Shown piece by piece: positions 20,580 to 51,855 of a stretch of DNA of 64,000 nucleotides (the stretch's first letter is position 1; each line of letters opens with the position of its first letter). Both the position numbers and the translations under genes were made by a program. Source of the stretch: Sipunculus nudus (lineage: Eukaryota > Annelida > Sipuncula > Golfingiida > Sipunculidae). Where the stretch lies: NCBI GenBank assembly GCA_026874595.1, contig CM049317.1, forward strand, positions 20,667,882 to 20,731,881, given 5' to 3'. Under the pieces are notes generated by a model, which had not been told where the DNA came from, did not search any database, and saw only the letters and a list, made by a program, of their open reading frames with translations.

Positions 20580-21067
20580 TCATTTCTCCTGTTGAACGTC
20601 ACCGGGTTGAGCTGTACCTGGTTCTTGTCCCCCCTGTTGGTGAAAAATAGTAATATTAGTTTTGTATGGAGGAGAACAAGAAAACCCAGGAATCCTTAGA
20701 TGTAAAAGTTTAGTCGGCATACTGAGACTTTTTTTTCTAAAGCCAACTAGTAGACAGTCATTCTGCTCTAGTTCATGTCATATTTACGAATTTACAAATT
20801 ATAATAAAATACAGTCTTTATTGTTTATCTAACCTGATCTCTACATAAGTGTTATATGCTTTATTACCTGTAAGCCGATTTAATAGACCCATGTATATTT
20901 ATTTAAATTCATCTTATTTCAAATAAGCCGCATCAAATATGATAATATATGACATGCACCGTATATGATAATTTTCTTATTACCGCTAGAAGACCAGTTG
21001 TGTCAGCTTCTTTCTGTATTTCTTTATGCTCTTTAGTCGAGTTCGTCCGAGACGTCATTTTGCCTTT
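20580..21067 (-). CDS. Gene A exons 19-20: C-terminal tail
   Basis: Exon 19 (20984-21067, 28 codons) is polar and ends 'KEADTTGLLA'; exon 20 (20580-20633) encodes 17 residues ending 'GDVQQEK' and TGA. Gene B keeps 'KEADTSGLLA' and 'GTAPPGDVQQ' in the same places, which supports the stop and both borders. No known motif. Confidence 0.85.
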
Positions 21068-24000
21068 CTGTGAGAGAAACCCATGTGGTCAAAACGAAAT
21101 GCAGAATAATTAAGGGTGGACGGTGATTTGGATTATATGAATAAAATTATTTGATATGTTTTATTCTCTTCTTTGTATACAGGCAATATATTGAATTTGA
21201 AGTAGGAGATAAATCTATATTTACTGATGACTTCTTCTTTTCCTTTTTCTCCATTGCAGCCCTTTCTTTTTCCTCTTTCTTCTTTCTCTCAAGCTGCAGT
21301 TTTTGTTCTTTCTCTTCATTCTTTCTCCTCTCCTGTTCCTCTTTCTTCTCTCTCTTAAGCTGCAGTTTTTGTTCTTTCCCTTCCTTCTTTCTCCTCTCCT
21401 GTTCCTCTTTCTTCTCTCTCTCACGCTGCAGCTTTTGTTCTTTCTCTTCACTTTTTCTTCTTTCCTCTTCCTTCTTCTTCTCAGCTTTAATCTCTTTTGC
21501 TGTCTTGGATTTTGCCTGAACTGGTTGCTGTTCGGCCATTTGCTCAGCTTGACTCAGCGGTTTGGTTGGCTCATTACTTCCCGAACCAATCTTTATCAAT
21601 GAAGTATCATTTGTATGTTATAACATAATAATACCCATATAATCAACATTGATAATACAATTTAATGGATAAGGGAAAGCCATGGTCGTTTATCAAAGAT
21701 ATATAGCATTTTGTTTAATTTTCATGAATGCGTTCATTGCAAATTATAAAACGTTATTAAGATTGTCTTATCAATGCAATAAACCTCTTCGGGTATTGTG
21801 GGTTTCACTTCTGCGTCGGGCAGTTTGGCTGATGTTGTCGGGGCAACCTCCTCAAAGTTGACCTATTGCATGGTAATTATATATATCCTTTTTAACAAAA
21901 ATTAAGGAAGTTATCTAAGTCTTTTGACAATGCAAGTTTTATTTAAAATGACCTGAATAGAATGTGGTATTCTGAAGATATTATTATACAGACATTGAGT
22001 GTAAATCTCGATTGTAAAACTGAATTCATTAATACTGACAACATTGTACATACCCTTTTTGGTGGTATAATAGTAGGAGGGTGTTCATCTTTGGCTAACT
22101 CACTCAGTTTTCCTTCTGGGCTAAGACGTTTTACTACCTTTATGGAAAAGGGTCAATAAAACTTACGAAGATACAATAATAATATTGTATTTTATGTCGA
22201 ACATGCTTCGTCCTCGCCTAATAAAATGTGAGCAGCTAAAAATAACATCACTACTCATGAACCAAAAGATTAATCAACATGATGGACTGATAAGAAATTA
22301 AAAATCTAAGAGGGAAATTACAATAAAGGTTGCAAAATGTCATTAGTTTATTATGAATATATCATTCCCCTTTGATAGTTCATTTTAGTAGGGGCTGAAA
22401 AAATGAACTTATTAAGTTTTTAAAGCATATAAGCTGTGTAGATATTTCAAAATTATATACCTTTTTATTGACTTAATAAAGATTCTAATACATGAACACT
22501 CTTAGGCTCTGGTAAGAGAATATAATGAAATGTCATACTGTGTCATGATCATGATCTATCTTCACTTCCTGTCTAGTGTTTGATTGCTTCTCTTTCACTG
22601 CAGATTCTGGTGCTTTGGTTATGATAGGAGATACCTCCTGTTTAAACAGACACCATCATAATATACATCTTCAAGGAATTATCTTGGCCTACTTGGAGAA
22701 AAATCTTCAGAAAATTCCATTTGCAAATTGTTAGCTGTAATTTTTACATGCATTGAGTGTTTTGTGATTAAAGTTATTGAGAAATACAGATATAAAACAA
22801 TATGTAAATGCATCCTAAACTTCATGTTATTACAAATGTATGTTCGTTGACAACAACAAATGTGTCTAATTCACAGTCCTTTCACATGTGCAGATCACGC
22901 TATAAGCTTTGAGTACCCCTTTGAAGAAACATCTTTCCATGTCCAATTATTGAATTAATATCCAAAAATGTGTCCGACATATACTGTAGATTCAGAAATA
23001 TTAGTTGGGATTTTATTTTCGTGGTTTTCGTGGAACAAGATAATCCACGAATTCATGATTCCAACGATCAAAGAATCACACGGTCAGAGGATATATGGTA
23101 TCTTAACGGCAGCTGGTGAACGACTTTATATATATAATTTTTACCGCTGGCTGAATTTTCAATAAAGATGCAAACATTGTTTATACTATTTTATTATTTT
23201 TTTTATACATTTATTAAATGCAATGAATAACTAAAACACGCCCCCCCCCCCTCCCCGATACCTTTACAATAAAGCAATACCAAAGTATAATTTAAACTGA
23301 AAACGTATCCCCACATTTCCTCTTATCAACATTTCGGGTGAAAAATTCAAGAACAATACCACATTTCTGTCGCGCAAAGCGGTAGTTCTGACACGCCAAG
23401 AACGGTACACAAGTTCCAATGTTCGTCACCACAGCTACCGAGGCACGGCTTTTTCGGAACCGACCTTTTCAACCTTCTTTCAATAGAGATTAAACGAGAC
23501 TTACGCTATCTATTGGCCTAAAAGACCAGGGCCGTGTAAACTCATTTGCATAACCGCGATTACCGCGGGACGCGAAAGAGCACTTATTCCGAATATTGCG
23601 ACAACAGTTGCGTGCATAACAGTGAGCCATTAATTATACATACAGGCGGTACTTCTTCCGAATATTGCCGATAGTTGTACATATATGTTAGCGTAAGTAA
23701 GAGCCACAGAATACTATTAGGCAAATTATTTCTTTATAATCTACAAATACAGCTGACATGATTAATGACGAACGAACCGTGTCTCGTCTCACCGCCCCGT
23801 GAGAGATTTACAGGTGCAACATGTGACTACAGCCTATAGATAAAAAAAAGGTAAAAACCTTCATGTGGACGGCCGGTCCCGTTTCATTTTTCCTCCGGTC
23901 AAGTGATGGTTGACGTTTTCTGTGAACGTGGTGTGATCGGGTGTTATAACTGATAGCCGATGTATCGGCTGTTACAACTAACAGCCGATGTATCGCCCGG

Positions 24001-24279
24001 CACGTGTCGGTCACGGCTGATTAATTCTTTGTTAGGCTCAGGTCGGGCGGAGCATGTTTGTTCAAAACTGACCCGATTAACCGCGGTACAGGCGCACCGT
24101 GTGATAAGCATCAAAGCCGAACCACCTGTGTACATCGGGCTCGTCTTCCTTGCGCACATGGAGGTATTAATATACATAATTTCCTAAAGTTTTCTTTGTC
24201 TTTCCACGAATTAAAATACCCCACGATATGCGTTTTGTACAAAAACCACAAAATTTTAAGCCCACGATATTATCTGAAT

Positions 24280-24340
<61 letters not shown>

Positions 24341-27300
24341 ACTATTTGCCAAATATTAAAAGCTTGTCCACACCTTTCTGCTACTCTGAGGTTGATCTAA
24401 CGTCGTCCCAGTTCCCACATCGTGAGCTGTAATCTTGTCCATCATTGCAGGGTCAATCTGTTACACAGAAGTGCTTTTTTGTAACAAAAAGTCCTACTTA
24501 TCAAAGAAATGGCTGGTTTGAGACAAGTTAAACATAGATGATATAATTTGATTCTCGATGAACCAGACAGATATTTGTTATTTAAAATTAGAGTCCCTCA
24601 CGGTATCATATGGGTTTTCCTCTTCTTTCTTTAGGATGTCAGCTGCTGAAGTATCTTTTGTTGTTTGTTTCTTTAAGGGAAAGAATAAATATATATAAAA
24701 AAGAAAAAAAAATAGACATGAAAAATATTTTCATTATATTGCAGAGGAGACCTCACAGTGGGTGCATTATTTAAAGTAAGTTTTTAGGTCGAACAGTCAA
24801 CATTTATGCCCTAACATTTAAGACTTTCTGAAAGCTCGAAATCATGCTTGCAGAGTAGAACTCACAGGGACAATATACTAGGTTTCCGAGGATATTTTAG
24901 AATGACTTCCCTTTAAGTAAGAAATGACATTTCTTAAAAGATTTGCTTGGTCTTAAAACCAGTTTTTGGTATGCATGTAACTTACTTTTAATTCGTGAGC
25001 AGCCTTTCCCTGTAACTCCTTTTTGTGAATGGGGCTCAGAACTTCTGCCTCTAATTTTGATACTCCCTGTCAAATCAAACTATAATTCGTAATTTAATTT
25101 GTGTATGTTAAGTGGTCAGTTTCTGTGCTAATCAAAGTAATTATATACAATAGCTTTACCACTTAAATCTATTTCTAGTAGAATAAGATAAGGGGAAATG
25201 CATGGTTTTATATATGTTATTATTTCTTTTATATCCAAACCCAAACGACTGAAGAATCTAAATATGTTTTATTGATTAGACAGGATTTACAATGCATCTT
25301 TCATGATTTGTAGCAAATCCTATAATTCTTCATATCTCGCGGTTTATTTACCAAGTGATTTCGGTGCTCATGTAGATTGTTTACCGTTCATGTGAAGAGC
25401 TTACCTGTGTGACTGGAATCTTTATACTTGACTTTGTGGTTGTAACTGTGTAGTCATTAAACCCTTTGTAACCTTTTGGCTTGTGCAGAGCAAACGCAAA
25501 TTCGAGATTAAAGTCACCTGGTTCCTTGGGTCTGCTTTCATCTGGTTCCTGTTGGCTACTTTTATGTCTTGCTATAAAAGTGCTAGTCGCTTGTGTCCAA
25601 GGAAATTTCCCTGTCAACAGTTTCTCTAGTCTAAGACTCTACGGATATAAATAGAAGTATATAACATGCAAGTTAAATAAACTGACTGATGAAAAAATAC
25701 ATAATATTTATAAGGTTTGCTCAGCTACTCACCGTGGCTTTGGTTCCGATAAGATTCCACTCTTCCTTGATGTCAAATACTGCAATCTCGAGCTCGTCAT
25801 GGGCCTCTAACAGCTGAGATGGCGTTTTCAAGGGTAGGTCAGCCGCGTGAATAACAATTTGCTACAAATGAAATGCACTGTTGTATCTTCGAAAAAAAAC
25901 TTGGCTTTTTTCAAATGTTACGTTCACGCTTTATATTATCGCTCTGTACACTCTTTTAACCTATCCACTGAATCCTGGGTCCTTAATTTATGGAAGCATT
26001 TTAACTCTCATTATTTACAAGGGACAGCAGTAAAGCAGATTAAAGATCGGCTTTCGCATGAAAAGAAAGATATATGTTGTTGATTTTTTCTTAATTTTTG
26101 TTAATAAATTGTAAATATTCTTTCGCTAAACATACCAACCAAAGGATAAATGAAAAACAGTTAAAACTGGTATGACTTCAGACCTTTGATTCTTTTCTTG
26201 AATGCGTTTTTTCTTCATTTTGTCCTGTATGACTGGAGCTTTCAAGCTCAACAATCTTCTGTTTTAGGTGTTCCTTTAAAGATATTCATAATGTGACCAA
26301 ATATTTATTGTACGTACCATATATAATCTACTGAACTACAGGTTTGTCATAAATGTATTATCGCTTCGTTCTGGTATAAATAATGGCAAAAATGATTATT
26401 ATTTTATAAATCGAAGTAAAACTTCACCTTAATAATACTAGAAACAGAATAAAATGAGTGAAAGATGGTTGTAAGAATTTCAACTTCCAATGGTTCGTTG
26501 GAATCGGTTTTCGCGTCTTTTAACAGTCCAAACACTGATGCTTTGAGGTTCAGACGAGCGGGACCCTCTATTTTACACGTGATTAAAAACTCAGCAATTT
26601 GCTCAGTCTGCTGCAGTGAAATTTCAAGTTTGTCATCAAGCACTTTACAATGCGTGTTCCTTTCGCCCTGCTTTTCCTGGGGTACCTCGGACCAGTCCCC
26701 ATGTTTTTCCCTCGTATCCCCGAGTCTCTGGTAAACATTGACTGATCTTTTCATCTCAAATGCAACGAAGTGTTTTACAGTGGCGGTGATGTATTTATGC
26801 AAGAGACCGGTTGATTTGATCTTAATAATAGGCGCTATTATCATATGCCCTTCCGGGGTGTTCTGATCAAATTCATGAACATCCATTTTCGGCTCCACTG
26901 TGATCTCCGCCTCAACTTCAAGAGCTCCTTGAGGTACATCTAGGGTGACATCGTAATTCGGGCACTTGTAGCTCCCTCCAGAGATGTCGAACCTTTCCGT
27001 AAATCGGGGTAGGGGAGGTTTGTTGTCCATCAACAGGGTTTCCTCATCTCCTTCAGCCTTTTCTTTCCGGGCCTTTAAAAGGCATAGGAAGCAAATACTT
27101 ATTGGAAAATGCTCATAAAATCGACATATAGTTCTCACTTCTTATTTTCATCTTTACACACGATCAGATCAGAGTAAGCATGGGAAAATTTTCTTTTTGC
27201 ATGACTTTGAAATAAAACACAGTTCTAAAATGTGATAATTACGTATAAATTTGCGTATTCTATTAAAGTTAATTTTCTTTTGCTGCTGCATATCTTCGTG

Positions 27301-30300
27301 TAATCAGTATGTGAATGAGCAATCTGACATTTTATTACAAGGGACACGGGTGCCGTTCAAATAGGTATGTGGTACATATATTGAATATTTACGTGGTATA
27401 CAATTTGTCTATTATGGGGGTGGAAGAAAATATAAAGGAAACGAAAACGTAATCAAATACGTTTAATACAAGATACATTATTACGAGCGGCATTATTCTT
27501 GTTTAATGTACGGAATAAATATAAAAAACATATATACATTTCTGATTTCGTCTATTTTCGTCATGATCCATTTCCTCTGGTAAACTGCTATGCCCGCAAC
27601 AATAAGGATAAGGAAGAGAAAGATCAGCCCAACAGCGAGGCCTGCTTTGTTTTCACTCCTTGCTGATCTCATGAAAATACACGAAAGTCAAATATCGTTG
27701 TAACAATTTAAGTAATAGTTCACAAAAGACATTTCATAAAATAATAAATTAAAGCCAGATAGAACAAATATTGATTATTGTGGTGAACGTATATCCTAAT
27801 ATGTATATTGAATATTCCTGCTATAATTCATCTATACACGGGATGATCGCTTTGAATGCGATTCTACTTTATAAAATGATAGTATAGTTGCTAGATAGGA
27901 CAATTGATAAACGTTTTACTCGTTCAGCGATAATACAACTATATTCCATATAATATGGAATATTTAGTGAGAGTCTCATCCCATCTCTTGTTATCATATG
28001 CTCAAAACTTTAGAGTGTGAAAAGCACCTGTTGGAGGAGCACCAGTGGTCATCGCGGGATCTGCTTCCTGAGGTGGTTTTGGTGTAACAAACTCATATTC
28101 TGGAAAGAAATTGCATGATTTTATAGAAAAAAAAATATTTTGGTAACGCCTATCCCACCGTGTACAGGCGTTTTGTTTCTTTTATATCCACGTTTTATGT
28201 GGGCCTGCCAAAACTATCCAAAAATAACCCCTGGTGGCATTGTGGAAGGACCAGAGGTTTGAAAAGGGCATTGTCAAGTTGTGAACGTTCACATATGCAA
28301 CCATCCATTTTAGATTACTTAGATTCCTGAGTGACAACAAAGCCGCATATACTGTCCATGCTAACAGTCTGTTGATAAAACAGCCTCATTAATTAGTCAC
28401 AGAGGCGTTCTAAGACAGCTCTAAACCTGAAAAAATTTGCAGTTCATTAATGCATATGTGGATTAAACCAGAAATCATATGTACATGTATTCTACAGAAA
28501 TGGTAGGTGAATAGCTGGCTTACAATGAAATATTCAAATTCATGAAAAATTCTATCATTACAACTGCATTCGCGGGAAGGTAAGATTTTAAATATATGGG
28601 ATATGGTACCATAAGCTGAAATACATTATAAAAGATATGCCATTGACCATTTTTCTATTTGTCTTACTTCATAGAACATTAGTGACAATATATAACTTTA
28701 AATTCTGTTTACATTTTTGTTTTCAGCCATACTCATGATACCTTGATTCTGAAGACAGAGGGCAGGCCGTTCTACATTACAACCTGATGATCTCCAGAAA
28801 TAACGCCTCTGCTCAGCGTCCTTTGCTATTACTGCGCAGTCGTGGGTCTTGTTCGGGAAACCGGGAGCCCAGTACGGTTTAAAGCTCTTATCCTCTATGT
28901 GTGATAAAATATAGTGTTTATGAGATAATTCTCATTCTGAATGAAGCCTCCAATAAAAAGGATACAATATATATCTATGGAGATTTAAATGAATAAGTCA
29001 GTACCCTCTTAACCATATGGCTCCATTTATCAATAACAATTGCTGAATAATAAAACGATCCTTTCAGCTAAATGTTATAAGATTGCTATTCTGATAAACA
29101 TATGATATGCACAACCTTTTGAAACACCAATAGTCATTTATTGTAAAATTATGAATTTATATTTCATTTATTTTCCTGTTTAAGAAAAACTGAAAAATGT
29201 TACTTAATTAAGGTAAACGAAGGTTTGCAACATACCCGTTACCCCAGTAGCATTATACACCCAGTATTCGCGGACGAGACCAATCCAAAACAAGTAGCAT
29301 GGCTTCCGGTTGGACACATACCACTGGTCGTGGATGATCTGCTTTGTCTTTTGGTCTCTAATGATAGCCAAGTCCATTCCTTTTCTTTTACATTGAAAAC
29401 GGGCATCATACCAGTTTTCAACGGAACATCCATATATCAAGGCCCGTCCCTGATGGTCAATACAGGTACTCTGTGATTCCCGACTGGCTGTGCACGTACC
29501 TAAATTTATGAAACTAGAATATACCCATATCAGTACGTGCATCCACACTTTTCTTAAATTATGAATAAGCACTGACATGGCGTGCGCGTTTGAAATGCAC
29601 TGACACAAATGTGGCGACAGAATATACCCATATCAGTACCTTGATCCACACTTTTCTGAAATTATGAGTAAGCACTGACATGGCGAGCGCGTTCGAAATG
29701 CACTGACACAAATGTGGCGAGGGGTGAGATGTTCCGCGTCCAAAATCGTCCAAACGATTAACCCGCAACATGATTCACTTGTGCCAAAATTGCCGATATG
29801 GGCAGTGGTGAGATGTTCCCGGTCTAAATTCGCCCCCGAGGTTAACCCACAACAACTCGTCCCAACGATTTATCCGCAACATGATTCACTTGTGCCCAAA
29901 TTGCCAATATGGGCAGTGGTGAGATGTTCCCGGTCTAAATTCGTCCCCGCGGTCAACCCACAACAACATTCATTTGTGTTGACCTAGCGGACTGCTTAGA
30001 AAAGGCCGACGCCTAGTGAATGTTTGGCAGACTATGTCAGGTTTGATTTGATTGGTTAGCGAGAGGAGATTGAGGACGACGTGGGCGCACTATGTGAGAA
30101 TGGCCATGGCACAGCGCAGGTATTAAACCCATAATATTTTTATCGATTTTGAGGCCATTTCTTTACCAAACGCCTAAAAAATATAAACTCGTTCTTCCCC
30201 GGACCAAGATGCACCCTCCCACGAAGTTTGACGACCGTGCGATCCCTAGCCTGCGAATGAATCCGCACAGACAAACAGATTCCCGTGAATTATAGTATGA

Positions 30301-33300
30301 TGAAGGCACAACTGGTAATCAGCAAAATCCGTAATATTGCCAGGATCTTGAAATAAGTGAGTGTATGCAATGATGATTGACTGAAGGTATTAAAAGCTTA
30401 TTAAGTGCTCCGGTTGGAAGGGTCTGGGACCCATTCCCTAGGGGCTCCCTTGGCGTAATATTGAATTGAATTCGAAGCCAAAGATGTCATTCAGCCCAGC
30501 CAAGATACAAGTGCAGCCAGCAAGCCCGAGGGGGCAAGTAGAGATTCAAAAAGCCCAGAGCGGAAACGCGTACGTCTTTCAATGGGCGCTTGAGCTCGAA
30601 CAGCGCCCCATAATTCATCGCTAGGACACTTCGTATACGTAAAACATTTATCGTCTTAAAAAATATGCTATATATATGCAGGAAATATAGAAATCACGAT
30701 GAAAGGATTGTTTGTCACGGTTGAACAACAGACCTGTCCAACCACATACGCGACACCTGTCGGTGACGACTGACAGCGAATGTGACACGAGAAAGATCAT
30801 ACTTTGTTTTATCTCATTATGTAAAATACATATGTATAACTTTCTAAAAAATGTTATAAATCCTTTATATATCTAAGAAACCAAGACAACCAAATATTAT
30901 ATAATACATAACTGTAATATTAAACTCAGAACCTAATATGTATTTGTTAAACATAATATTATAAAGTGTATAAGGTAAAATCATGTTTACACCTCATGTT
31001 TTAACTAAATTTATTGTTTTCCGAGTTTTTCTTATTAAAAAGGCAATGCATTCTCACGTTGACAGACAGACATGTATTGTGTGCACCTACATTTCTGACT
31101 GGCAGATATACCAGTATATATTTATATTATCCGGAGAGGGTGTTTAAGTACTTTGGACGTATTTAGGTCAAGCTCCAAACGCTGAACAATCTAACTTAAT
31201 TTGATAATATGAATTGATATAATTAATGTGTAAATGTCGGACCTTTCTTGTAAGTGCGAGATGCATGGTGTATCTGATACTCTAGAATGGTAATTCTTTT
31301 TTGATGAGTTTTGAATTTTCAAAATGAGTTTTGATTCAGCGGTATGAAATAAAGTGTTTATAGACCCTTCTTGAACGTTTTAAAAGCTAAGATCGACTTG
31401 AGATGTAGAAGCGGCGCGTATGTTAATGTGCAACTCTTTTGCCGAATCGAAATACTCCTCGTAGGGTATTCCATTAATACGAATCCACGAACAGAAATAA
31501 ATTGAAAAAATTACAATATAACCTTATTGGCGTAGATGAACAGCGACAGACAAACAAAAGCACAGTGCTCAGTGATCCTGTCAACAAGAAAAACTACAAA
31601 CACGGATTAAAACATAACCTCCTTGGCTTAGTGGAACAGCAGCTAACAAACGAAAGCACAGTGCTCGGTGATCCTGCCAACAAGAAAACATACAAACTCG
31701 GATAAAAACATAACCTCCCTGCAGAGGCGCTCTTTCTGCCTTGCCCGTTGTAATTGTCACATCGCTATGTTTTCCTGTTGCGATTTTGTCAGTTCTTACC
31801 GTTGAATTCACAGATGTATCCCAAGTGATCCAAAGTACAGTTGTCTACCTCCACGGCCTTGTCTCTATTGTGGAATAGTCCGCAGTCCATGTAGTCCCTC
31901 CAAGGCTGCTTGGCGAAGATATGGCCTAAAAAAACAGGGTCAATCACGCTCTGCTTTATGTAATATTCATGGAATACATACAGAGAATACGACCACCACT
32001 TAAAATTGGGTTATATTGTTTAAATCAAATTGAAGGACATCCAATAATTTACTTTAATGTAGGCTCACATTTATGATGTTATTATGAGTCAATAGACACG
32101 TATAATATCCTGACGATATCCAAAATTTAACGATTCTTTTAGAAATAGGACAAAAATCTAATTTGATGCCGGGATTATTTGATTATCACTGTGGCAAAAT
32201 TCTTCCTCCTATTCCCTTGAAAAGTAAATGGGATGAAATGCTGTTTGTCCTACCCCCTCCCTAAAGATTTAAGGAGTTATGAAGCGGACCGGTTGGGTCC
32301 AAAATTCTGGTCTGGACAGGACCGGACTGCTTAAACAAAATACCAGACCTATGATCCTTGGACAAGACCAGTCTTGCTCAATCAATTTACTTGCTTGTGC
32401 TATAGAGCAATTTGTTTCACACGTTAAGTTCCAACTGATAACCTTACCAGACGTCCTCTAGACAAAGTAGGATGCTTAAAATTAAAAATAAATGTAGTGG
32501 ATATAGTTCTTAATAAGAGGTGACACAGAAGACCTGAGAGCAAAAGGGAGATAATATATGCATGAGGATTTATAGGGTCTTGAACACATTTATTGTTTCA
32601 TTTATTTGGTAAAACTTAATTTTTCATTGACGGTTTTTAATTCATAGTATGCATTTGCGGGTTATTCATGGAAACAAGCAGGGGTTGTAACTAATTAGTT
32701 ATGAATGCTATTTCTCCAGATTCTCTCATACTATAAATGTATTAAATACATGGACAAGAGCGTTTGGACCGGGCCGCCCTTAGTATTGGACTGCCCATAG
32801 ATGGAAAGAACCGGACCGTATCTCCATCCCCCAGTCTCTAGATAAAAAGGCTTATGGAAAAGATGATACCCCCGTAAAAAGTTTGAACGTTCTTCCGTTA
32901 ATATATATATGCATAAGTCACAATGAGGAACAGCATGTTTTTGCTTTAATATATTGACATATTAGGCCAATAAAATTGGAAACAACGAATAAACTTTTCT
33001 ACGATATCGATTTAACCAGGCTATTGGGAACTCTTACTTTCTAATTAGTGCATTTGTCTTATTCCTTTGAAAGGATATCATGATCATGTGTCATTGATGC
33101 AGATTAAATTTCCTTTTTCATATGAACAACTATCAGAAGATAAGCAAATTCTTGTTTTTATTTTTTCAAAGAAGAATAATATCACTCGCTCTGTATTTTT
33201 CTGTGTCATTGAATAAGAAAAATATATATCTTTTGTGGTGCGACCTGTAAAGCCAAATCTTCATTCTTTCAACCTACCAACAGGTTTGCCATCCACCCAC

Positions 33301-33845
33301 ATCCATACATCGAACTTTCTCCGTTTCAGAGGTAGCCATGTTTCTGTAATTTGTTGGTCTGACATTGCCTTCTCGATCCTCTTGATGTTCTTGTCTCCCT
33401 GGTACACAGGCAGGCCGTAACCAGCTCCAGGATCTGAACATTCCCGGGAGCTCCTCTCATAAGTGGCGGCGGCGATTTTCGTGAAATCCTTTTCTGGAAC
33501 TTATTTAAGGCACATGAATTGTACTTGGTAAAATATCACTCCTTATTAAAATAGAGGGAGGTGATTTCTTTTCGGGGCATATCAATTGGTCAAAATGAAT
33601 TTAGAATATATATTGTCCAGCATATAGACACGTTCATCATCCGTATATGATTCTGAGTTGCTTACTAAACGTTACTGTATATTTAATCTTTATTTCATCA
33701 TGAAATATTTACGTTATAAATTGAAAATGATAATAATGGCAAAATATAATTTGATAATCGGATACAAAATAAATATGAAATATATAATAACACTAATAGA
33801 AACTAACAAATAAATAAAACTAATTTTCATATAATAAAATGATAC

Positions 33846-33894
<49 letters not shown>

Positions 33895-36800
33895 CATCTC
33901 TGTTTGTGTTTGTGTGTGTGAAATATTTATGAAATAAATGTCAATATCTTTCCATTTAGAACCGAGTGAAACCAGTCACATAGACATAAACTATAACGGT
34001 GTAATATCACGCTTTGCATAAGATATGTATTACCCCTTACACACTCTAAAGCTTTTTGACACCATTTTGCCAAAACGGTTTGAATTCAGCTCAGCAGGTG
34101 GTTTTTACCCCTTTTGAATGCGAATCGTTTTATCCGCTTTGATAGAGTGTCGTGTAACCGTTCAAGTACGGCGTGGATCCAGCTTTCAAGCAGCAACTCA
34201 GTTAAGCGAATGCTTGTGACAAGATGTTGTTGCATTGTTCCACATGTGAAATGAACAACCCTTGCACTGATGCTCTTTCGGAACGTACAACACGGATTTA
34301 AATCAATTTGGCCAAACCGCTTTGCCCAAATCGGTCTGAAAACGTTTTGTGGGTGTTAGGGGCATAACGATTATAAGTATATCAACATTAAAGCTTCGAA
34401 TTGGCACCGTTGGCCTTGTTTATCTATGATATAAGTGACCTTCCGTTACTAATCCCGTACACCTGATATGTGTTGGCATGGCGATACGTCTGATGTATAT
34501 TTACCATGCAATGACATTTTCCTCCATGAACTGAGTTTATTTATTCACGATTATGTTCTAATATGTTTTGTACTGAGCGTTTGCCTTTGCTGGAAAACTA
34601 CTGGTACCACAACACAATAGTGTACTTATTTTTATACAAGGCACACTCAGTGTGAACCATCTGTTCACATACAGCATATGTATGTCAAGCAGGTCAACGT
34701 CCTCACTTCAGATGGTGCATCGTATACATGGGAACTTGACGTCAACATTTAGTACCACAGCTGATAAGAAAGCATTTCACTCCACTCTCTACAAATGCTG
34801 TGCATATGTACATTGCACATATCATTAAGTCTTTGAATGGTGTTGTTGAAGCTAATGTTTTTTTATAAATCACCTGTTGAATCAAACTGTAAAGGGTCGT
34901 TAACCCCTGAAATAATATTTGTATTAACTCAATCCATTAGTTCATTTTGACTGAATACAAAGTTACCTTGTTAACCATTCCCGGGCACTGACTTATTTTA
35001 TCCAGTTCATCTGTTTAAACTTTTATATGGCTCTGTGTGCGAATACACATTGATAGCGTGAGTCGTATGTGCTATAAAAAGAGTGCCTTACCAGAGGACT
35101 CATGTTGAGCATGCTTGACAATTTACAAACAAGGAAACACATAGTAGAAACAAAGAAAATAGTGGAGTTTCATCAATGTTGAGTTGAGAAGTTGCACGGG
35201 AGAACTACCAGATGGCGCACCTGATATATATACATGAAAACTGATTTGAAGTTGTGCTTGATGCCATTACATACCTTAATTTCATTTAATCAATCCCTTG
35301 TTTGGTGATAATAAAAAAAAATTAAACATTATTTGTATATTGATCGTAACAAAAAAAAAAGAGCTTTTTCACGTGCATTTATACATTTTCTGGCTTTTTA
35401 GGTACATTTCCATGATACTTGGGAAAATTTTGCCTCGGAAATATAATGAAATGTTTCTGTGACGTATTTTAAGCACAAGCTGATAGTAGACGCGCCACAA
35501 ATCCTACATGGCCATGTTGACAAACAGAAAAAGAAAACGTGACCAAAAGTGGTTGATTACACATGTGCGAGCGATGAAATGTCAGTGGTTTTTATATCTG
35601 AGATTACGTGAAGTAACACCACATTAAGACAACTACAAATCCGCTTCGTCTTTTTTGGGCGTGTTTGGAATAGGACAAGCAGCTATTTTACCTCCCTTAA
35701 AATAAAACTGGGTATAAACAAAACTGACAGCCTATGTACCGTGGGATCGAAATGGGAAAGGAAATGAAGAACGAAATATTACAAAGACTCATTAATCGTT
35801 ATCTACAAGCAGACATTTTCTTACCATCGCGAAAACCATAAATTATAATGACATATGGATTTGAGTTATGTAACGTAAACTTCTGTTATACATGTATTTA
35901 ATCGATTTTCCAATAAGCATGTGGTAAAGGGTTAACAGTCATCATATTTCTAATCTGACTAAAAGTGGCCGCCGATATGAATGATAGGTTCTTGGTAAGA
36001 AACAAAAAAAAAAGACTAACTACTGCAATAATTTGTTACCCGAAAGTCTGTTTCCAGAGTGTGTTTGATAAATTGAGCACAAGATTATAGATACAACAAT
36101 TATATTTTATTGTGTAATACATTATAATTATTAAGTTGATGTACGGGTGAAATTTACCACACCGAGAAGAGGTATTAAATAATAACTTCCACAGTTTACC
36201 TTTTACAATGAAATCTAGATAATACACTTATGAAAAACAAATAACATCCAGTTGGATAACAAACTGCCCCAGACTGAGGATTGATAACGCCATATTGCTG
36301 ATGTACATTTACCAATGACCCCCTAACCCAGGTGCAAAATGTGAAAAGTCGATTGTCACATACGGATTTTCGTCTTTTTCTTAAAATGGGACCTGGTTGA
36401 AAGGCAAGAGTATTAAATCGAAATTCATCAGTAACGACAAATGACATACATTTCTAATTTCATACCCACAACGTCAAATATGTTTTCTTAGAAGATCTTT
36501 CTTTTAAAAATTGTTATTATAAAATAAGTTGGGCTTTTATTCTCGTGAAAATTAATCCGTATACATGCAAAATTTGCATATTAAACATGAAACGTATGTG
36601 AAAGGTAAGTTAAGAAAAAAATGCCAGGGGATATTCTCATGTATTTTTACACAGACCTACTGAAAATTTGCTACGACTGCTACGAGAATTATTGAGAATT
36701 ATTCGTTTTGTACATGAAATTAAAATTTCATATAAGTTTTAAGAAAGCAAATAACTTTGATGAGATACGAGGATTACTTTTATTTCATCCAACAGACAAT

Positions 36801-37561
36801 TTCATAAGTCTGCGGGATATACATTTGTCATGCATTATTTAAATCCCGAAAGATCAAGGTATATTTAGCTACTGCCATGCGGCTTATTAAGTGTCATTTT
36901 ATATTGATCAGAACATTTGCCTTCACTTTAGCACTACAGGCTCAAGGTCACATGACACAATGGTGTACCTATATATAGCGCGCTTTCACTGTGAGCAGTC
37001 TGTTAGACCATACAACCATATGTATGTCAAGCAGGTCAATGTCCTTGCTTCAGCTTAAACCTCTGTTAAACCATCCTGTTTACACGGGCCTTGACGGTAA
37101 TAAGTAGAACACAAGCCGTTAAACAAATGATTTATTCTATCGGGAACAAAGTCTTATAAAAGTATATATTTGTACATGACTACCGAAAAAGTAAGCAATA
37201 GTGAATCTTAATGTTATGTTATGTACGGCCTGTAGAAAAAATTGTTATAACACGGTGTGCTTTTAAGGGTTGGCTCTCAGCTGAATATTACACATTACTG
37301 ATTTTTTATATTTTGGTAGCACAAAAGTTCGATAGAACAACTCTTTTGGCTGTGTTTTTTTTGTGTAAGCATCAGTTCTCATTCCTAATTTTTCAAACTA
37401 TAAGAATCACTGTTTACGAATCGAACCTTAAAGTCTAAATGGAAATAAATGAAATACGGCATAATATTTTCTTCACAGAGAGAATATAATTGTAAAGTTA
37501 ATTCTGAAGTTTGCCAAAAGGACTCAGAAGTTTATGAAATAAACATACATATTAATTTGAG

Positions 37562-37604
<43 letters not shown>

Positions 37605-37992
37605 TTAATCATTAACAACTACTAGACAATTCTTGCCATCGCGCTAAACATATATTTTCAATTGACGTATATAGAACTGAATGTTGTTATGTAGAGCAAG
37701 CTTCCTTTATGTAAGGGTTTTATCGAATTTTAAATATACAATTGTGATAGGTTCATAGTTAAACTCAAACAAAGAGACTAACGTCTACATTAATATGTAA
37801 CGCAATTGAGATAGTGATATACTGTCTGTTTCAATACACCAATATATCGAGATATATCAATAAGTTGATATGGTAACAGGTACGCGCTATCGTTGGATCG
37901 AGGAAGCACAAAAACAAAATATTTTGGCCTTTAAAGACTTTTAAAAAGTATAAAAATGTCGAATGTTCGGCTTGGTGAAGAATATATGTATG

Positions 37993-38040
<48 letters not shown>

Positions 38041-38866
38041 ACATGCGCCGTATTTTCCTTTGTTCTACCTTTACGTTCAAATCTGCTTGCATCACAGGGT
38101 CATGAAAAGTGACCAAGCAAGTGACCTTGCATGGCGACTTTCCAAATATGGCAAAGACCTGGTGCGTAGCCAAAAAAAGTGAGACGCGTGATCTTCGAAC
38201 AAGGAGGCGGGGCATGTGGGACAAATCAGTTATAGCCCAATGAAATGTAATGCAAGCCATGAGATTTGCTTGGCTTGTGTCAAGCATGGCAGGCGAGCCT
38301 AAACGGCCTGCCAAGTGACACAAGCCTCGCAAACCTCACGGCTTGCATAACATTTCATTGAGCTATAACCAATACATATATACATTTTTCGGTGCTTCAT
38401 AAAGAGACGGAGCCGTGACAAACCCGACTCCGTATAGACAATAAATTGGGCTGGTAAACCTGCTTGAAAGCCAGTAATCTGGCCTTAATGTCAGATGGCC
38501 GCTATGGTGCTAGACGAGACGAAACGTTTTATCCATGGTAGAGAAATATACGTATTATCAATGGTCCGAAAAATGCCTTTGGGATATTGCTATGTAGTTT
38601 TTAGTCCACTAAAAGGAGCCTTACTTTTACCGTGTGAGCATGTTAATATATATACATATATACCCTGGTTTCTTAGTATCATAATAACACGTTTACAGTG
38701 AAATCATTAAAAGTGTGTATGCATTGGGGCCTGAGTTCCGGGCAAATTACCAGATATGATAAAATCTGCTTCAAATGCTGTCGATCAGTATGGTAAATAT
38801 TGTCATTAAGGATATTCTCAGCAAACTTTTATCCTGATCGCTCTTAGACTGAATGTGTGTTGTATA

Positions 38867-38910
<44 letters not shown>

Positions 38911-39983
38911 TAGATATATATACCAACTACAACCTCGAAATTATAGCCACCAGCGGTTTGAAGTGGTCGTCTAAGTGAGAATTGACAATCAGTGGTCTGA
39001 AAACAGCTCGAATGCATTGTTGATTATTTATGAGTGGTCTGTGGCCTCCATATTTCTTATAATTTTTCATCCTACATCTAAGGGATGACACATGATTTTT
39101 TTAAATGTTTTTTTATCATATTTAGAAATAAATTAAATTCAAATAAAAAAGACGTTCATTACAATGCACATCCAGAACCTCAAGTTATAATTTATATTAA
39201 AATATATCATAATATGACAATGATTGCCTGTACGATATAAACATTTGACAGACTTTTAACCGTAACCATTATCCAGTCAAATGAATACAAATTTTGTTTT
39301 AACCGGATTAGATAGTAACGACCTGTGATCATGAATGTGATAATTATTGACTGGACTCCATTCTGGACCAAACTCGTTTGAAGGGAATATCCATGCTGAA
39401 AATGTCACAGATGGATTCACAATATGATGGAGTTATTTATTTTTGTCTCATCACAGACACCTCTGAACAAATAGGAGAGAAGGGCAAAATAATGTAAATA
39501 ATAAATAAATGGACCTATGCTAATTGTCTCTTTATTTTTAATTAAATTGTAATGTCGGTTTCAATAGGAGAATGTGACGTCATCAGATTTGTTCGAGGAT
39601 ATGACTATAGCAGGTTTACTCGTTTTGTCTTACAATGTCTTTATACGGCAAGCTAATAGTCTCGACACCAGTTATCATGGATCACCAAATGAGGAATGAT
39701 GGCCTATGGAATAGCACAATGGTTCCTGACAATTTCCACTGAAATCGATTTGAACGCCTGGTGACTTGATATTTTTTTTTCAGGGAAAATATGCTCAAGG
39801 AAGATATTATACACAAAGTGTGTACCACCAACAAAGACAATAAATATACCTGTGACCGCTTATATATGTGCACTAGACGTGGTAGATAACAGATATGTCA
39901 AAGTGTCAAGGTAAACACTTACCTGGCGTACCCGAAATCCCCACTAAAACACTCACAATCAGGATGAGTGTTTTACAGTTCAT
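20580..39983 (-). CDS. Gene A: lectin-like transmembrane receptor with ZU5 tail (20 exons, 1039 aa)
   Basis: Exons in transcript order: 39923-39983, 33278-33499, 31800-31925, 29236-29499, 28742-28894, 28028-28099, 27538-27662, 26428-27072, 26184-26273, 25733-25861, 25405-25638, 24986-25066, 24602-24670, 24374-24457, 22539-22637, 22054-22137, 21785-21862, 21225-21590, 20984-21067, 20580-20633. Every intron is GT/AG and the frame is open from ATG to TGA. Predicted order: signal peptide 1-18, CTLD1 21-136, CTLD2 137-275, stalk 276-299, membrane helix ~306-327, ZU5 ~365-470 with an uncharacterised extension to 556, C2-like module ~587-707, disordered linker 708-872, Lys/Glu-rich helix 873-994, short tail. 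Known of the families: CTLDs bind glycans or proteins outside the cell; ZU5 occurs in ankyrin, UNC5 and PIDD cytoplasmic parts. No death or TIR domain is seen. A cell-surface recognition receptor is the best inference. Exons 5-20 are matched one for one in gene B. Confidence 0.9.
21225..21590 (-). CDS. Gene A exon 18: Lys/Glu/Arg-rich helix with three 22-residue repeats
   Basis: 122 codons. After a Gln/Glu-rich start comes 'KTAKEIKAEKK' and then three near-identical 22-residue units of the type 'RRKxEEKEQKLQxERxKKEE'. The alternating acidic and basic residues predict a coiled coil or a stable single alpha-helix. Gene B has one unit only (97 codons), so the 66-base unit has expanded here or contracted there. 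The plus-strand open frames over this stretch are its antisense shadow. Confidence 0.85.
21785..24670 (-). CDS. Gene A exons 13-17: low-complexity cytoplasmic linker
   Basis: Five short phase-0 exons (24602-24670, 24374-24457, 22539-22637, 22054-22137, 21785-21862), rich in Glu, Lys, Pro and Thr and probably disordered. Exon 13 ends 'EEENPYDT' and exon 14 starts 'IDPAMMDKI', giving a Tyr-Asp-Thr-Ile motif; gene B has 'EEEDPYDT' plus 'IDPAMMDQI'. Exon 16 ends in a Pro-rich 'PPTIIPPKR'. YxxI motifs can be SH2-binding or endocytic signals; that use is inferred. Confidence 0.8.
22983..24291. mobile_element. Possible ~1.3-kb element with ACTGTAGATTCAGA ends, in gene A intron 14
   Basis: The left end reads ACTGTAGATTCAGAAATATT and the right end ATATTATCTGAATCTACAGTA, facing each other and flanked by TA-rich sequence. 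'TTTTCGTGG' and 'CCACGAA' motifs follow inward from each side. The interior (23200-24150) is unlike the rest of the intron, GC-richer and CpG-containing, with 'CAGCCGATGTATCG' repeated near 23955-23995. It could be one element or two solitary MITEs flanking unrelated sequence. Confidence 0.45.
24286..24339. repeat. (TA)n microsatellite in gene A intron 14
   Basis: A pure TA run beginning at the right end of the preceding repeat and ending about 35 bases from the exon 14 donor. Open frames through it encode Ile-Tyr runs and are not genes. Confidence 0.95.
24986..25066 (-). CDS. Gene A exon 12: charged helical segment
   Basis: 27 codons, phase 0-0, with 'KLEAEVLSPIHKKELQGK'. It corresponds to the exon that is duplicated in gene B (54300-54383 and the broken copy at 52460-52542). 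It links the C2-like module to the disordered region. Confidence 0.85.
25405..25861 (-). CDS. Gene A exons 10-11: C2-like module
   Basis: Exon 10 (25733-25861) encodes 'IVIHAADLPLKT...DELEIAVFDIKEEWNLIGTKAT' in pieces, exon 11 (25405-25638) continues with 'LRLEKLLTGKFPW' and beta-rich 'FNLEFAFAL'. The spacing of 'AADLP', 'LEIAVFD', 'IG' and 'L-LEKLL' resembles a C2 beta-sandwich, which in other proteins binds membranes or partners. Gene B keeps 'AADLPL', 'EIAVFDNKEAW' and 'TGRFPW'. The fold call is moderate; few acidic calcium ligands are evident. Confidence 0.6.
26184..26273 (-). CDS. Gene A exon 9: charged connector after the ZU5 exon
   Basis: 30 codons, phase 0-0, starting 'EHLKQKIVELESS', hydrophilic and probably helical. 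The gene B counterpart (57715-57804, also 30 codons) starts 'DNLEAKIVES'. It was too short to stand alone, but is supported by GT/AG borders and paralogue conservation. Confidence 0.8.
26428..27072 (-). CDS. Gene A exon 8: ZU5 domain
   Basis: 215 codons in one exon. 'NKPPLPRFTERF' leads into 'GGSYKCPNYDVTLDVPQGAL', the typical ZU5 opening (Gly-Gly, then a beta strand and 'VPxGAL'). Then come 'AEITVEPKMD', 'GHMIIAPIIKIKS', 'KYITATVKHF' and 'WSEVPQE', as in ZU5 domains of ankyrins, UNC5 and PIDD. The last ~100 residues ('EQIAEFLITCKIEGPARLNLKA') may be a diverged continuation or UPA-like segment; I cannot decide. The exon directly follows the transmembrane exon, so the domain is cytoplasmic. 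The plus-strand frame 26465-26734 is its shadow. Confidence 0.9.
27538..27662 (-). CDS. Gene A exon 7: transmembrane segment
   Basis: 42 codons counting the split one. 'AGLAVGLIFLFLILIVAGIA' is an uninterrupted hydrophobic helix, followed by 'YQRKW', a basic stop-transfer flank that places the C-terminal side in the cytoplasm. Phase is 1 at the start and 0 at the end, the only asymmetric internal exon. Gene B exon 59652-59776 has the same length and nearly the same helix. Confidence 0.92.
28028..28099 (-). CDS. Gene A exon 6: Pro/Thr-rich stalk
   Basis: 24 codons, 'YEFVTPKPPQ' then 'MTTGAPPT', rich in Pro and Thr and likely an O-glycosylated spacer between CTLD2 and the membrane. Phase 1-1. 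The gene B exon 60627-60698 has the same length and the same 'EFVTPKP' and 'TTGAPP'. Confidence 0.85.
28742..29499 (-). CDS. Gene A exons 4-5: CTLD2
   Basis: Exon 4 (29236-29499, 88 codons) gives the N-terminal half of a CTLD: 'YGCSVENWYDARFQCKRKG', 'LAIIRD', then 'FWIGLVREYWVY'. Exon 5 (28742-28894, 51 codons) gives the C-terminal half: 'YWAPGFPNKTHDCAVI', 'RSSGCNVERPALC'. The Cys pattern fits a long-form CTLD. Neither EPN or QPD nor the WND calcium triad is present, so classical calcium-dependent sugar binding is unlikely. N-glycosylation sequons occur at 'NAT' and 'NKT'. Phases are 1-1 for both exons. Confidence 0.88.
29515..29723. repeat. Tandem repeat, ~104-bp unit, two copies (gene A intron 3)
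   Basis: Both copies run from 'AGAATATACCCATATCAGTAC' to 'CACTGACACAAATGTGGCGA' with a few differences. The minus-strand open frames 29204-29771 read into this repeat past exon 4. Confidence 0.85.
29723..29970. repeat. Second tandem repeat in gene A intron 3
   Basis: 'GGTGAGATGTTCC' recurs at about 29723, 29807 and 29918 with 'CAACATGATTCACTTGTGCC' and 'ATATGGGCAGTGGTGAGATG'. Units are about 84-111 bases. It directly abuts the 104-bp repeat. Confidence 0.8.
29971..31513. other. Remainder of gene A intron 3
   Basis: No exon, TIR pair or recognisable element seen. Mixed composition, AT-rich from 30600 onward. Confidence 0.5.
31514..31725. repeat. Tandem repeat, ~96-bp unit, about 2.2 copies (gene A intron 3)
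   Basis: The unit starts AACATAACCT, includes 'AAAGCACAGTGCTC' and 'GATCCTG-CAACAAGAAAA', and repeats at about 31514, 31610 and, partly, 31705. The open frame 31502-31705 is this repeat and not a gene. Confidence 0.8.
31800..33499 (-). CDS. Gene A exons 2-3: CTLD1
   Basis: Exon 2 (33278-33499, 74 codons) and exon 3 (31800-31925, 42 codons), both phase 1-1. Exon 2 has 'SSRECSDPGAGYGLPVY' and the CTLD core 'TWLPLKRRKFDVWMWVDGK'; exon 3 has 'PWRDYMDCGLF', 'DNCTLDHLGYICEFNG', the usual C-terminal 'C...YICE' end. The domain lacks the EPN/QPD and WND calcium motifs, and its N-terminal part is short (no 'YxWxxA' helix with Cys). One sequon, 'NCT'. I infer a CTLD fold with protein or non-classical ligand binding. 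Confidence 0.82.
33500..39922. other. Gene A intron 1 (6.4 kb), repeat-filled
   Basis: Contains (TA)n tracts at about 33851-33890, 37566-37600, 37998-38037 and 38871-38906; a diverged direct repeat pair (about 34575-34712 and 36912-37052, sharing 'CATATGTATGTCAAGCAGGTCAA'); and a foldback palindrome at 38231-38367. No exon that would keep the phase-1 junction is seen. Confidence 0.6.
38231..38367. mobile_element. Foldback palindrome, likely MITE (gene A intron 1)
   Basis: The left arm 38231-38282 and right arm 38316-38367 are reverse complements at 46 of 52 positions, beginning TATAGCCCAATGAAATG and ending CATTTCATTGAGCTATA. An inner stem, GGCAGGC with GCCTGCC, sits in the 33-base loop. Transcribed RNA could form a long hairpin. 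The class is not determined. Confidence 0.75.
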
Positions 39984-49099: not shown

Positions 49100-49681
49100 T
49101 CAGTTAATTCTCTGCTGAACATCACCGGGTGGAGCTGTGCCTGCTTCATGATCCTCCTGTTGATGAGCATAGTATTATTTAGTTATCATCCAAAATGACA
49201 GGGATAGCCCAGAAATAATTAACCAATTCTTTAGATGAAAAAGTCCAGCACACGAACTGAGAATTTGTGAGAAAAAGAAAAGATTGACAGTAACTTATAG
49301 TTAAACATGAATCCAATTGTATTAAAATATGTAAATTAGGCATTGTTAATTAAAACGTAAAAAGCAATCTTTCATATAAAATATCCTCGACACACATATA
49401 TTTTACAATTGTGTTTTTGGACGGACTCGACAGAGGCAGGTAATGTATTTATATTTTCACCGTGTACATTAATGTACACTAAAATTCCATTTCTCAAATT
49501 GTATTCTGAATGTTTGCACGACAATTACCGCTAGAAGACCAGATGTATCAGCTTCTTTTTCCATTCCTTCAAGTTCATCTTTTAAGCCTGTTACGGGGGT
49601 CATGTTGGCTTTCTGTGACAGAGAGGACCCATTTGGGAACCATGGAATATTTTTTATGACTAATAAACGTTGGACATTATT

Positions 49682-49731
<50 letters not shown>

Positions 49732-50177
49732 GCATTTGTTCATATTGTTAGCTGTAGGTGAATCTAAATACTTAAATAATGCAAATATTAATTCGGATGA
49801 ATTAAACATGAACGAAACAAGGGGATTTGAAACAGGATAACTCGCATTATATGGCTTTCAGAAGCAAGAGAAAAATCTCCATTCACCAATCTTTGTTTCT
49901 TCTCTTTTTTCTCTCTGGCCATCCTTTCTTTTTCCTCTTTCTTCTCTCTCTCACGCTGCAGTTTTTGTTCTTTCTCTTCCTTCTTTCTCCTCTCCTGTTC
50001 CATTTTCTTCTCAGCTTTAATCTCCTTTGCAGTCTTAGGCTTGACCTGTTCTGGTTGTCCTTCGGTCACCTGCTCAACTTGATTGTTCTCTTTGGTAACT
50101 GCTTGTTCACTTTCTACAGATGACGTTACTTTGGTTTCTTCGCTGGTTTTATTGTTTCCATTACCTCCCGAACCAAG
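49100..50177 (-). CDS. Gene B exons 18-20: Lys/Glu-rich helix and tail
   Basis: Exon 18 (49887-50177, 97 codons) has a longer Ser/Thr/Glu/Gln-rich start than gene A, then 'KTAKEIKAEKKMEQE' and one 22-residue 'RRKKEEKEQKLQREREKKEE' unit where gene A has three. Exon 19 (49529-49612) and exon 20 (49100-49156, 18 residues and TGA) keep 'KEADTSGLLA' and 'PPGDVQQ'. Confidence 0.85.
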
Positions 50178-51855
50178 CTTAATTAATAAAATATCATTCA
50201 TTAATAAACATTAATATATTCATGTATAACAAAGTGATGTACACCAAAGGAAATGTTTATCAGCTATACCACGTGGTTTCGTTTAAATTTACACAAATGC
50301 CTTTTTTAAGATGGTCCTTTCAGTGGAGCTAACCTCCTCTGTAATCTTGAGTGTCAGTTCCACGTCGGTCGGTTCGACTGACGTTATCGGTGCCTCATCC
50401 TCAAACTTGACCTATTATATAACATATGTCTTTTTGAAACACAAATCATGGAGCTATCTAAATCATATGACAAAAAATAATTAAAAATGACGTGTTAAAG
50501 TGTGCTATTCAGAAAATATTACTGCATAAATATAGGGTGTAAAAGTCAAATGGGTGCAAAATTGAAATTAATTATTCGGAAATAATGTTCTTCTAGAAGG
50601 TTAAAATTGTCATGGGGTGTATTGTACAAACACGTTTTGGTGGTACGGTAGGAGGAGGGGGCTCTTCTTCCTCTTTGGTTGACTCAACAAGTTTCCCTTC
50701 CGGTCCAGAACTTTTTACCACCTTCATATGAAAAGTTTCACAGAAAATACGAAGTTTTAAAAAATATACAAGTGTCTCGCATCTCTTAAATGCTACGTCT
50801 TCGCCTTATGAAGCACAGACAACACAAAGACATATGTCACGTATAAAAAAAAACAAATTAAGGGGAAATTTGAAAAAGATTGTAATATGCTAAGTGTTAA
50901 TTATGAATACATTATGCTCTTATTAGAGGGCATTTAAGTGCGGGCTGTCTCAAACGTGTCTTTCATATTTTACTTTTTAAATAAATATGATGTGTGTAGA
51001 TAATCCAAAATCATATGACGTTTTATTTTACTACAGGAATAAAAAATTCAAATACATAAAATCTTTGGGCTATGATATAAGAATGCCATAAAATGTCATA
51101 CAGTGGCATAATCATGGTCTATCTTCACTTCCTGCTTATCATCGGGTTGGTTTACATCAACTGAGGCCTCTGCAGTTTTTGTTACCGCAGGAGATAGCGC
51201 CTGTGAAAATAGATATAACAATAATATTTGTCATGCAGAAATCTTCTTTGCCGAACCAATATTATATAAAATATCAACTATTCATATTATAGCCAGAATT
51301 GGCAGTTTAAGTGATTAAAGTATTAAAAAAATAGATATAACACAATTATGTAAATGCATAATAAAGAACATGTAATTACAAACATGTACGTTAAATAAAA
51401 GTAAATGTAGAATCTAATTAACAAACCTTTTCTTCACATATCACGCTTTCAGCTTGTATTTCCCCTTATCGCGTTATCACCAACATGTGTGCAATTCATA
51501 TATTGATTATTCGCCAAATATTCAAACAAAGCCTAACCATACCTGTTGGCTGCTGTGGGGTTGATTAAAGGTTGTTCCAGTCAATACTTCGCCAGTTATG
51601 ATCTGATCCATCATAGCTGGGTCAATCTGTTACACAGATACGGCTTTTTTAGTTAAAATTGGATGTCCAAAACAGATTTAACAAATGACTGATTTCAGAA
51701 AAGTCAAACAAAAATTATGCAATTGTATTAACGATAAAAGCTGTAATTTTTAATAGGGTAAAACTTATCTCACGGTATCATATGGGTCTTCCTCTTCTTT
51801 CTTGAGGACGTCAGCTACTGAAGTGTCTTTGGTTGTTTGTTCCTGTAGAGATGAA

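Follow-up and report, generated by a model that had tools for sequence, protein, structure and literature searches.

ZU5 and UPA domains stand together in UNC5, in ankyrin and in the FIIND region of PIDD, NLRP1 and CARD8. UNC5 is a single-pass receptor with immunoglobulin (Ig) and thrombospondin (TSP) domains in its ectodomain, and ankyrin is a cytosolic protein. On the lectin side, the transmembrane C-type lectin receptors of the Dectin-1 and CLEC-2 type are the nearest objects of comparison. Here, a window of 64,000 nucleotides of Sipunculus nudus (C12:20667882-20731881, contig CM049317.1) was analyzed. The focal gene, on the minus strand from 39983 to 20580, joins two C-type-lectin-like domains (CTLDs) to a cytoplasmic ZU5 domain through a transmembrane (TM) helix. 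As judged from the genome, it belongs to a large family of such fused receptors that is dispersed along one chromosome.

The focal gene model, which is known here from genomic sequence alone, was obtained by joining open segments of the minus-strand translation at AG/GT borders. All borders of its 20 exons are GT-AG, the phases fit together, and the frame is free of stops until the last codon. The original prediction had also given 20 exons. In the present model the donor of exon 8 was set at 26428 instead of 26446, because that donor is common to the tandem paralogue B. Introns 1-6 are in phase 1, exon 7 is entered in phase 1 and left in phase 0, and all later introns are in phase 0. The resulting protein of 1037 residues possesses a hydrophobic N-terminal start read as a signal peptide, two CTLDs (residues ~22-135 and ~136-273), a stalk, a TM helix (~303-325), the ZU5 domain, a further cytoplasmic module and a long tail with many charged residues. 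The ectodomain carries four N-glycosylation sequons, and the charged stretch of exon 18 is probably helical. Introns in the window hold long AT dinucleotide tracts, e.g. at 24290-24340, 33855-33890, 37565-37600, 38000-38040 and 38870-38905.

Pfam Lectin_C matched the focal protein in two stretches with 64.8 bits (E 1.4e-17; cut-off 22.6), a value computed, like all whole-protein Pfam scores given here, on the model with exon 8 ending at 26446. Scored singly, CTLD1 and CTLD2 reached 28.7 and 43.3 bits, both above the cut-off, which places the protein in the C-type-lectin-like domain superfamily. Lectin_C was the sole significant Pfam match in residues 1-339, and an Ig/TSP ectodomain of the UNC5 type was not found there. 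EPN or QPD together with WND are the calcium and sugar motifs of classical C-type lectins. All three were absent from focal residues 1-300, so the signature of classical calcium-dependent sugar binding is lacking; among the paralogue CTLD exons checked, EPN was found in one only (member D) and WND in none. Because the focal copy lacks these motifs, a protein or a non-classical glycan is as likely a ligand as a sugar. A function in recognition is plausible.

Pfam ZU5 matched residues 365-453 of the focal protein with 23.4 bits (E 7.2e-5; cut-off 21), and the final exon 8 scored singly reached 25.0 bits. The structure prediction, which covered exon 8 only, gave a ZU5 fold for which Foldseek ranked UNC5b first; the model aligned with UNC5b 544-729 and NLRP1 843-1020. 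The Pfam score and the fold together identify the domain as ZU5, and the profile search of the joined protein proposed in the original prediction thus found both Lectin_C and ZU5 above cut-off. Of the ZU5 exons of 12 family members, 9 matched Pfam ZU5 at E <=0.01. A PDB search with focal exons 8-12 alone returned no relative and three chance-level rows, and for this reason a profile of the 12 members was required. In the UNC5B chain, this profile covered residues 8-178, beyond ZU5 into the start of UPA, and it matched UNC5B at 3.1e-12 versus ankyrin-3 at 1.1e-4. The preference for UNC5B bears on the idea of a cortex-bound receptor for adhesion or phagocytosis, in which an ankyrin-like ZU5 would tie the CTLD ectodomain to spectrin and actin and not serve signalling. 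We regard such an anchor as improbable, since the Foldseek ranking points the same way, a single ZU5 is present in place of the ankyrin tandem, and the Pfam ankyrin repeat was not found in the protein.

For the second cytoplasmic module, a diverged domain of the UPA type known from UNC5, PIDD, ankyrin and NLRP1 is a more likely reading than a C2 domain, because the ZU5-exon profile runs past ZU5 into the UPA of UNC5B and the predicted model aligns with both UNC5b and NLRP1. The original prediction had called this module C2-like. That identity was rejected, as Pfam C2, with E values of up to 10 admitted, did not match the cytoplasmic region in a search whose HMMER filters drop most weak matches. 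Pfam UPA likewise had no match in the focal protein. Searching the genome (1.43 Gb) with it, 5 candidates were scored and gave 3 places, all on chromosome C2 adjoining the ZU5 of UNC5; in this and the other genome searches the best candidates only were scored, and all counts are lower bounds. Extending the 12-member profile with exons 9-11 of three members made the UNC5B match no longer, and comparison with a single UNC5 sequence gave a UPA probability of 0.1. With hhalign, the whole module scored 11.5 against a two-sequence UNC5 profile; 95 of 300 column shuffles scored as high or higher, and so did 92 of 300 when only the stretch beyond the first intron was compared. The sequence support is therefore limited to the start of UPA. 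The UPA introns of this genome's UNC5 are in phase 0, at positions that correspond by eye to the focal introns.

The tandem paralogue B, which the original prediction did not mention, lies on the same strand at window coordinates 72.5 to 49.1 kb, partly beyond the right end of the window. Homologues of exons 2-19 were found in the same order and phases (18/18), and exons 1 and 20 complete the set of 20; as identical phases were a requirement of the search, what it shows is the existence of a suitable exon in each of the 18 cases. Exon 12 of B is seemingly duplicated (minus strand, 54383-54300 and 52540-52460). Over 960 aligned codons, the ratio of nonsynonymous to synonymous substitution rates (dN/dS) of focal gene versus B was 0.34 by the Nei-Gojobori method on this one pair. 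It was 0.22 in CTLD1, 0.30 in CTLD2, 0.25 in stalk plus TM, 0.25 in the ZU5 exon, 0.33 in exons 8-11 and 0.42 in tail exons 12-19, single exons ranging from 0.12 to 1.0. These ratios indicate, for the one pair compared, that purifying selection acts on both the lectin and the cytoplasmic halves of the gene; positive selection on the CTLDs was not seen in these pairwise averages.

The arrangement recurs along chromosome C12. In 264 kb around the focal gene, CTLD exons lie upstream on the same strand for 8 of 9 ZU5 exons, and a bridging TM exon, entered in phase 1 and left in phase 0, is present in B, with weakly similar ones in members A, C, D and E. A merged list of 38 ZU5 places, in which member A was scored as a miss and members Z and G were not included, has 32 on C12. 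A same-strand CTLD2-type exon was found <=12 kb upstream in 17 of these 32, against a chance mean of 0.15 and maximum of 4 when the C12 places were shifted round the chromosome 2000 times. For all 38 places, the same-strand region downstream and the opposite-strand region upstream were devoid of such exons within 12 kb, and the six places outside C12 also lacked one upstream on their own strand. The remaining 15 C12 places had no CTLD in the list, yet member A has CTLDs by separate search. This test took 102 of 150 CTLD places; of the 48 excluded, one lies on C13 and the other 47 all belong to a repeat of 441 codons, whose single C12 copy is remote from every ZU5 place. At 19.29 Mb a candidate TM exon directly precedes the ZU5 exon of a member, while a scan of the upstream flanks (~1.5 kb each) of L006, L007, L023, L024 and L025 found none. 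The ZU5 exon of member C contains a stop, so this copy is probably broken, and the ZU5 of member Z is in pieces.

That the model merged two neighbours, one gene for a lectin and one unrelated gene with ZU5, is hardly credible. The same arrangement recurs in the paralogues, with strand and order retained and a TM exon as bridge, and the CTLD-ZU5 association extends along the chromosome; two separate genes were rejected on these grounds. Paralogue B and the local and chromosomal pairing argue for a dispersed family of fused receptors and not an accident of the gene model. Hence the single receptor with two CTLDs, TM and ZU5 of the original prediction, which had not noticed the family, is backed by Pfam and by paralogue comparison. 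The CTLD-TM-ZU5 arrangement has been multiplied and kept, and is therefore probably used.

No Death match, or any other significant Pfam match, was found in the focal tail, and no Death match in the nearest 10 of 41 frames downstream of the gene; the C-terminal death domain of UNC5 is thus not found here. In the genome, 46 Death candidates were scored and 31 places found. One, beside UNC5 on chromosome C2 (33.69 Mb) and adjoining its ZU5 and UPA places, served as positive control. Among the best candidates scored, none lay closer than 322 kb to any of the 32 C12 ZU5 places. The original prediction therefore holds in outline, as a fused receptor in which no death domain was found, with the identity of its second module in doubt.

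Another possible output is proteolytic. If the ZU5 part self-cleaved as in PIDD, NLRP1 and CARD8, a UPA-tail fragment would be released. This FIIND-like switch is very unlikely, since HF[S/T], the cleavage motif expected at the ZU5 end, is lacking in 8 of 12 members including the focal gene, B, D and E; HFT is present in the other 4, and neither the focal protein nor B carries the F-S motif of FIIND and PIDD autoproteolysis. The tail itself holds candidate motifs. Exon 13 is its best-kept exon (83% identity between focal gene and B), and YDTI at the exon 13/14 junction is present in both, preceded by EEENP in the focal protein and EEEDP in B. Speculatively, YDTI could resemble a hemi-immunoreceptor tyrosine-based activation motif (hemITAM) or an AP-2 signal; a hemITAM is a YxxL/I motif which recruits Syk when phosphorylated. 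YDTI in both copies, together with the NPF that a putative tail exon of member A encodes, would also suit a scavenger or endocytic receptor, whose CTLDs capture ligand and whose tail motifs drive clathrin uptake with the ZU5-UPA block as structural spacer. We hold this to be unlikely as well, because the motifs are short, their sharing across members is not established, and the constraint on the ZU5 exon is less needed by a mere spacer.

We give about an even chance to a single-pass surface receptor of a multigene family, in which the CTLDs bind ligand and a ZU5-UPA-like supramodule and the charged tail act inside the cell. Ligand binding by the two extracellular CTLDs would cluster the receptors. 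By analogy with NLRP1, the ZU5-UPA block could form a resting-state lock and docking surface; autoinhibition of NLRP1 needs ZU5, and UPA-mediated oligomerisation is blocked in the DPP9 complex (PMC8081665). Opening or clustering may then expose the acidic patch with YDTI and the proline cluster to adaptors, kinases or endocytic machinery. These motifs would stand in for a death domain, and the output would necessarily fall to the tail or to partners. Immune or epithelial cells would probably use the receptor to recognise microbes, particles or self/non-self. More tentatively, and with less confidence than the receptor itself, the family could be a large innate recognition system on one chromosome, in which paired CTLDs signal via a membrane-attached ZU5-UPA switch whose death domain was lost, using tyrosine and adaptor motifs of a fast-evolving tail, the UNC5-type block having been re-used for lectin receptors.

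Table 1. Exons of the focal gene and of paralogue B, in window coordinates.
Feature	Position	Strand	Basis or remark
Exon 1: start codon and signal peptide (MNCKTLILIVSVLVGISGTP)	39923..39983	-	assembly; homologue in paralogue B
Exon 2: CTLD1 first half	33278..33493	-	assembly, paralogue B, Pfam
Exon 3: CTLD1 second half	31800..31925	-	assembly, paralogue B, Pfam
Exon 4: CTLD2 first half	29236..29499	-	assembly, paralogue B, Pfam
Exon 5: CTLD2 second half	28742..28894	-	assembly, paralogue B, Pfam
Exon 6: Pro/Thr-rich stalk	28028..28099	-	assembly, paralogue B
Exon 7: TM helix and juxtamembrane part	27538..27662	-	entered in phase 1, left in phase 0
Exon 8: ZU5 domain, then initial strands of UPA-like module	26428..27072	-	Pfam, profile, fold match
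Exon 9: UPA-like module (inferred)	26184..26273	-	assembly, paralogue B
Exon 10: UPA-like module (inferred)	25733..25861	-	assembly, paralogue B
Exon 11: UPA-like module (inferred)	25405..25638	-	assembly, paralogue B
Exon 12: tail linker	24986..25066	-	assembly, paralogue B
Exon 13: tail; acidic stretch EEENPYDT, YDTI formed with exon 14	24602..24670	-	assembly, paralogue B
Exon 14: tail	24374..24457	-	assembly, paralogue B
Exon 15: tail	22539..22637	-	assembly, paralogue B
Exon 16: tail with proline cluster	22054..22137	-	assembly, paralogue B
Exon 17: tail	21785..21862	-	assembly, paralogue B
Exon 18: Glu/Lys/Arg-rich, highly charged	21225..21590	-	assembly, paralogue B
Exon 19: tail	20984..21067	-	assembly, paralogue B
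Exon 20: last codons and stop	20580..20633	-	assembly; homologue in paralogue B
B, exon 5 homologue (CTLD2 second half)	62341..62493	-	B exons 1-4 beyond window right end
B, TM exon	59652..59776	-	homologue of exon 7
B, ZU5 exon	57977..58618	-	69% identity to exon 8
B, exon 10 and 11 homologues with intervening intron	56944..57366	-	
B, tail exon 13-20 homologues with introns	49100..51842	-	

CTLD2-type exons as such are concentrated on C12, with 61 of the 102 CTLD places used, and CTLD clusters at 20.95-21.12 Mb and 69.2-69.5 Mb without ZU5 match may carry other tails. The excluded repeat (G000) has 47 places spread over each of C1-C17, e.g. C12:2528145-2528510, with 441 codons in 44 of 47, and aligns with one common span of the CTLD query (22-24% identity). 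It is probably a transposable element carrying a C-type-lectin-like domain. Another type of ZU5 was found at C3:30.68 Mb (L008, 1306-2253) and C3:30.63 Mb, without CTLD matches nearby; L008 has a TM-like hydrophobic stretch and ZU5 within one long open frame.

A published CTLD-TM-ZU5 family was not found in the literature searched, which covers few subscription papers, in line with the original prediction, which knew of no described family with this order. The arrangement is not reported in the available parts of PMC8260672, PMC8195603, PMC6641155, PMC3210808, PMC10869415 and PMC8081665. Such a family may exist unnamed in sequence databases. The arrangement is built from known kinds of module, and the combination itself was not found described; two well-studied modules are thus joined in a new order as far as this literature goes. 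If the signalling is true, a lectin receptor would feed, with no death domain involved, into the ZU5-UPA machinery known from inflammasome proteins and netrin receptors, and the family would offer a testable case of receptor diversification in animals without antibodies.

Cnidarian NLRs with ZU5 also have this domain joined to a recognition protein, but they are intracellular NACHT proteins, for which CTLD or TM is not named in the accessible part of the text (PMC8260672). The Dectin-1 and CLEC-2 type shares the CTLD ectodomain, and the acidic stretch ahead of YxxI is reminiscent of hemITAM, whereas the focal protein is type I, starts with a signal peptide, has a pair of CTLDs and carries a large folded module in the cytoplasm. 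PIDD, NLRP1 and CARD8 share the order of ZU5 followed by a UPA-like part, and NLRP1 the fold match, but they self-cleave and end in a death domain or CARD, while the focal copy has no cleavage motif. Ankyrin (ZU5-ZU5-UPA-DD) shares the ZU5 fold, with the best VIA Z, and differs in its two ZU5 domains and death domain (PDB titles). UNC5 differs in its ectodomain, which is Ig/TSP and not CTLD-CTLD, in its death domain, not found here, and in lacking the long charged tail. It is nevertheless among the closest described systems; the single-pass topology is shared, and the UNC5B cytoplasmic part (PDB 3g5b), with intracellular ZU5 followed by a UPA-like stretch, gave the best match both in sequence and by Foldseek.

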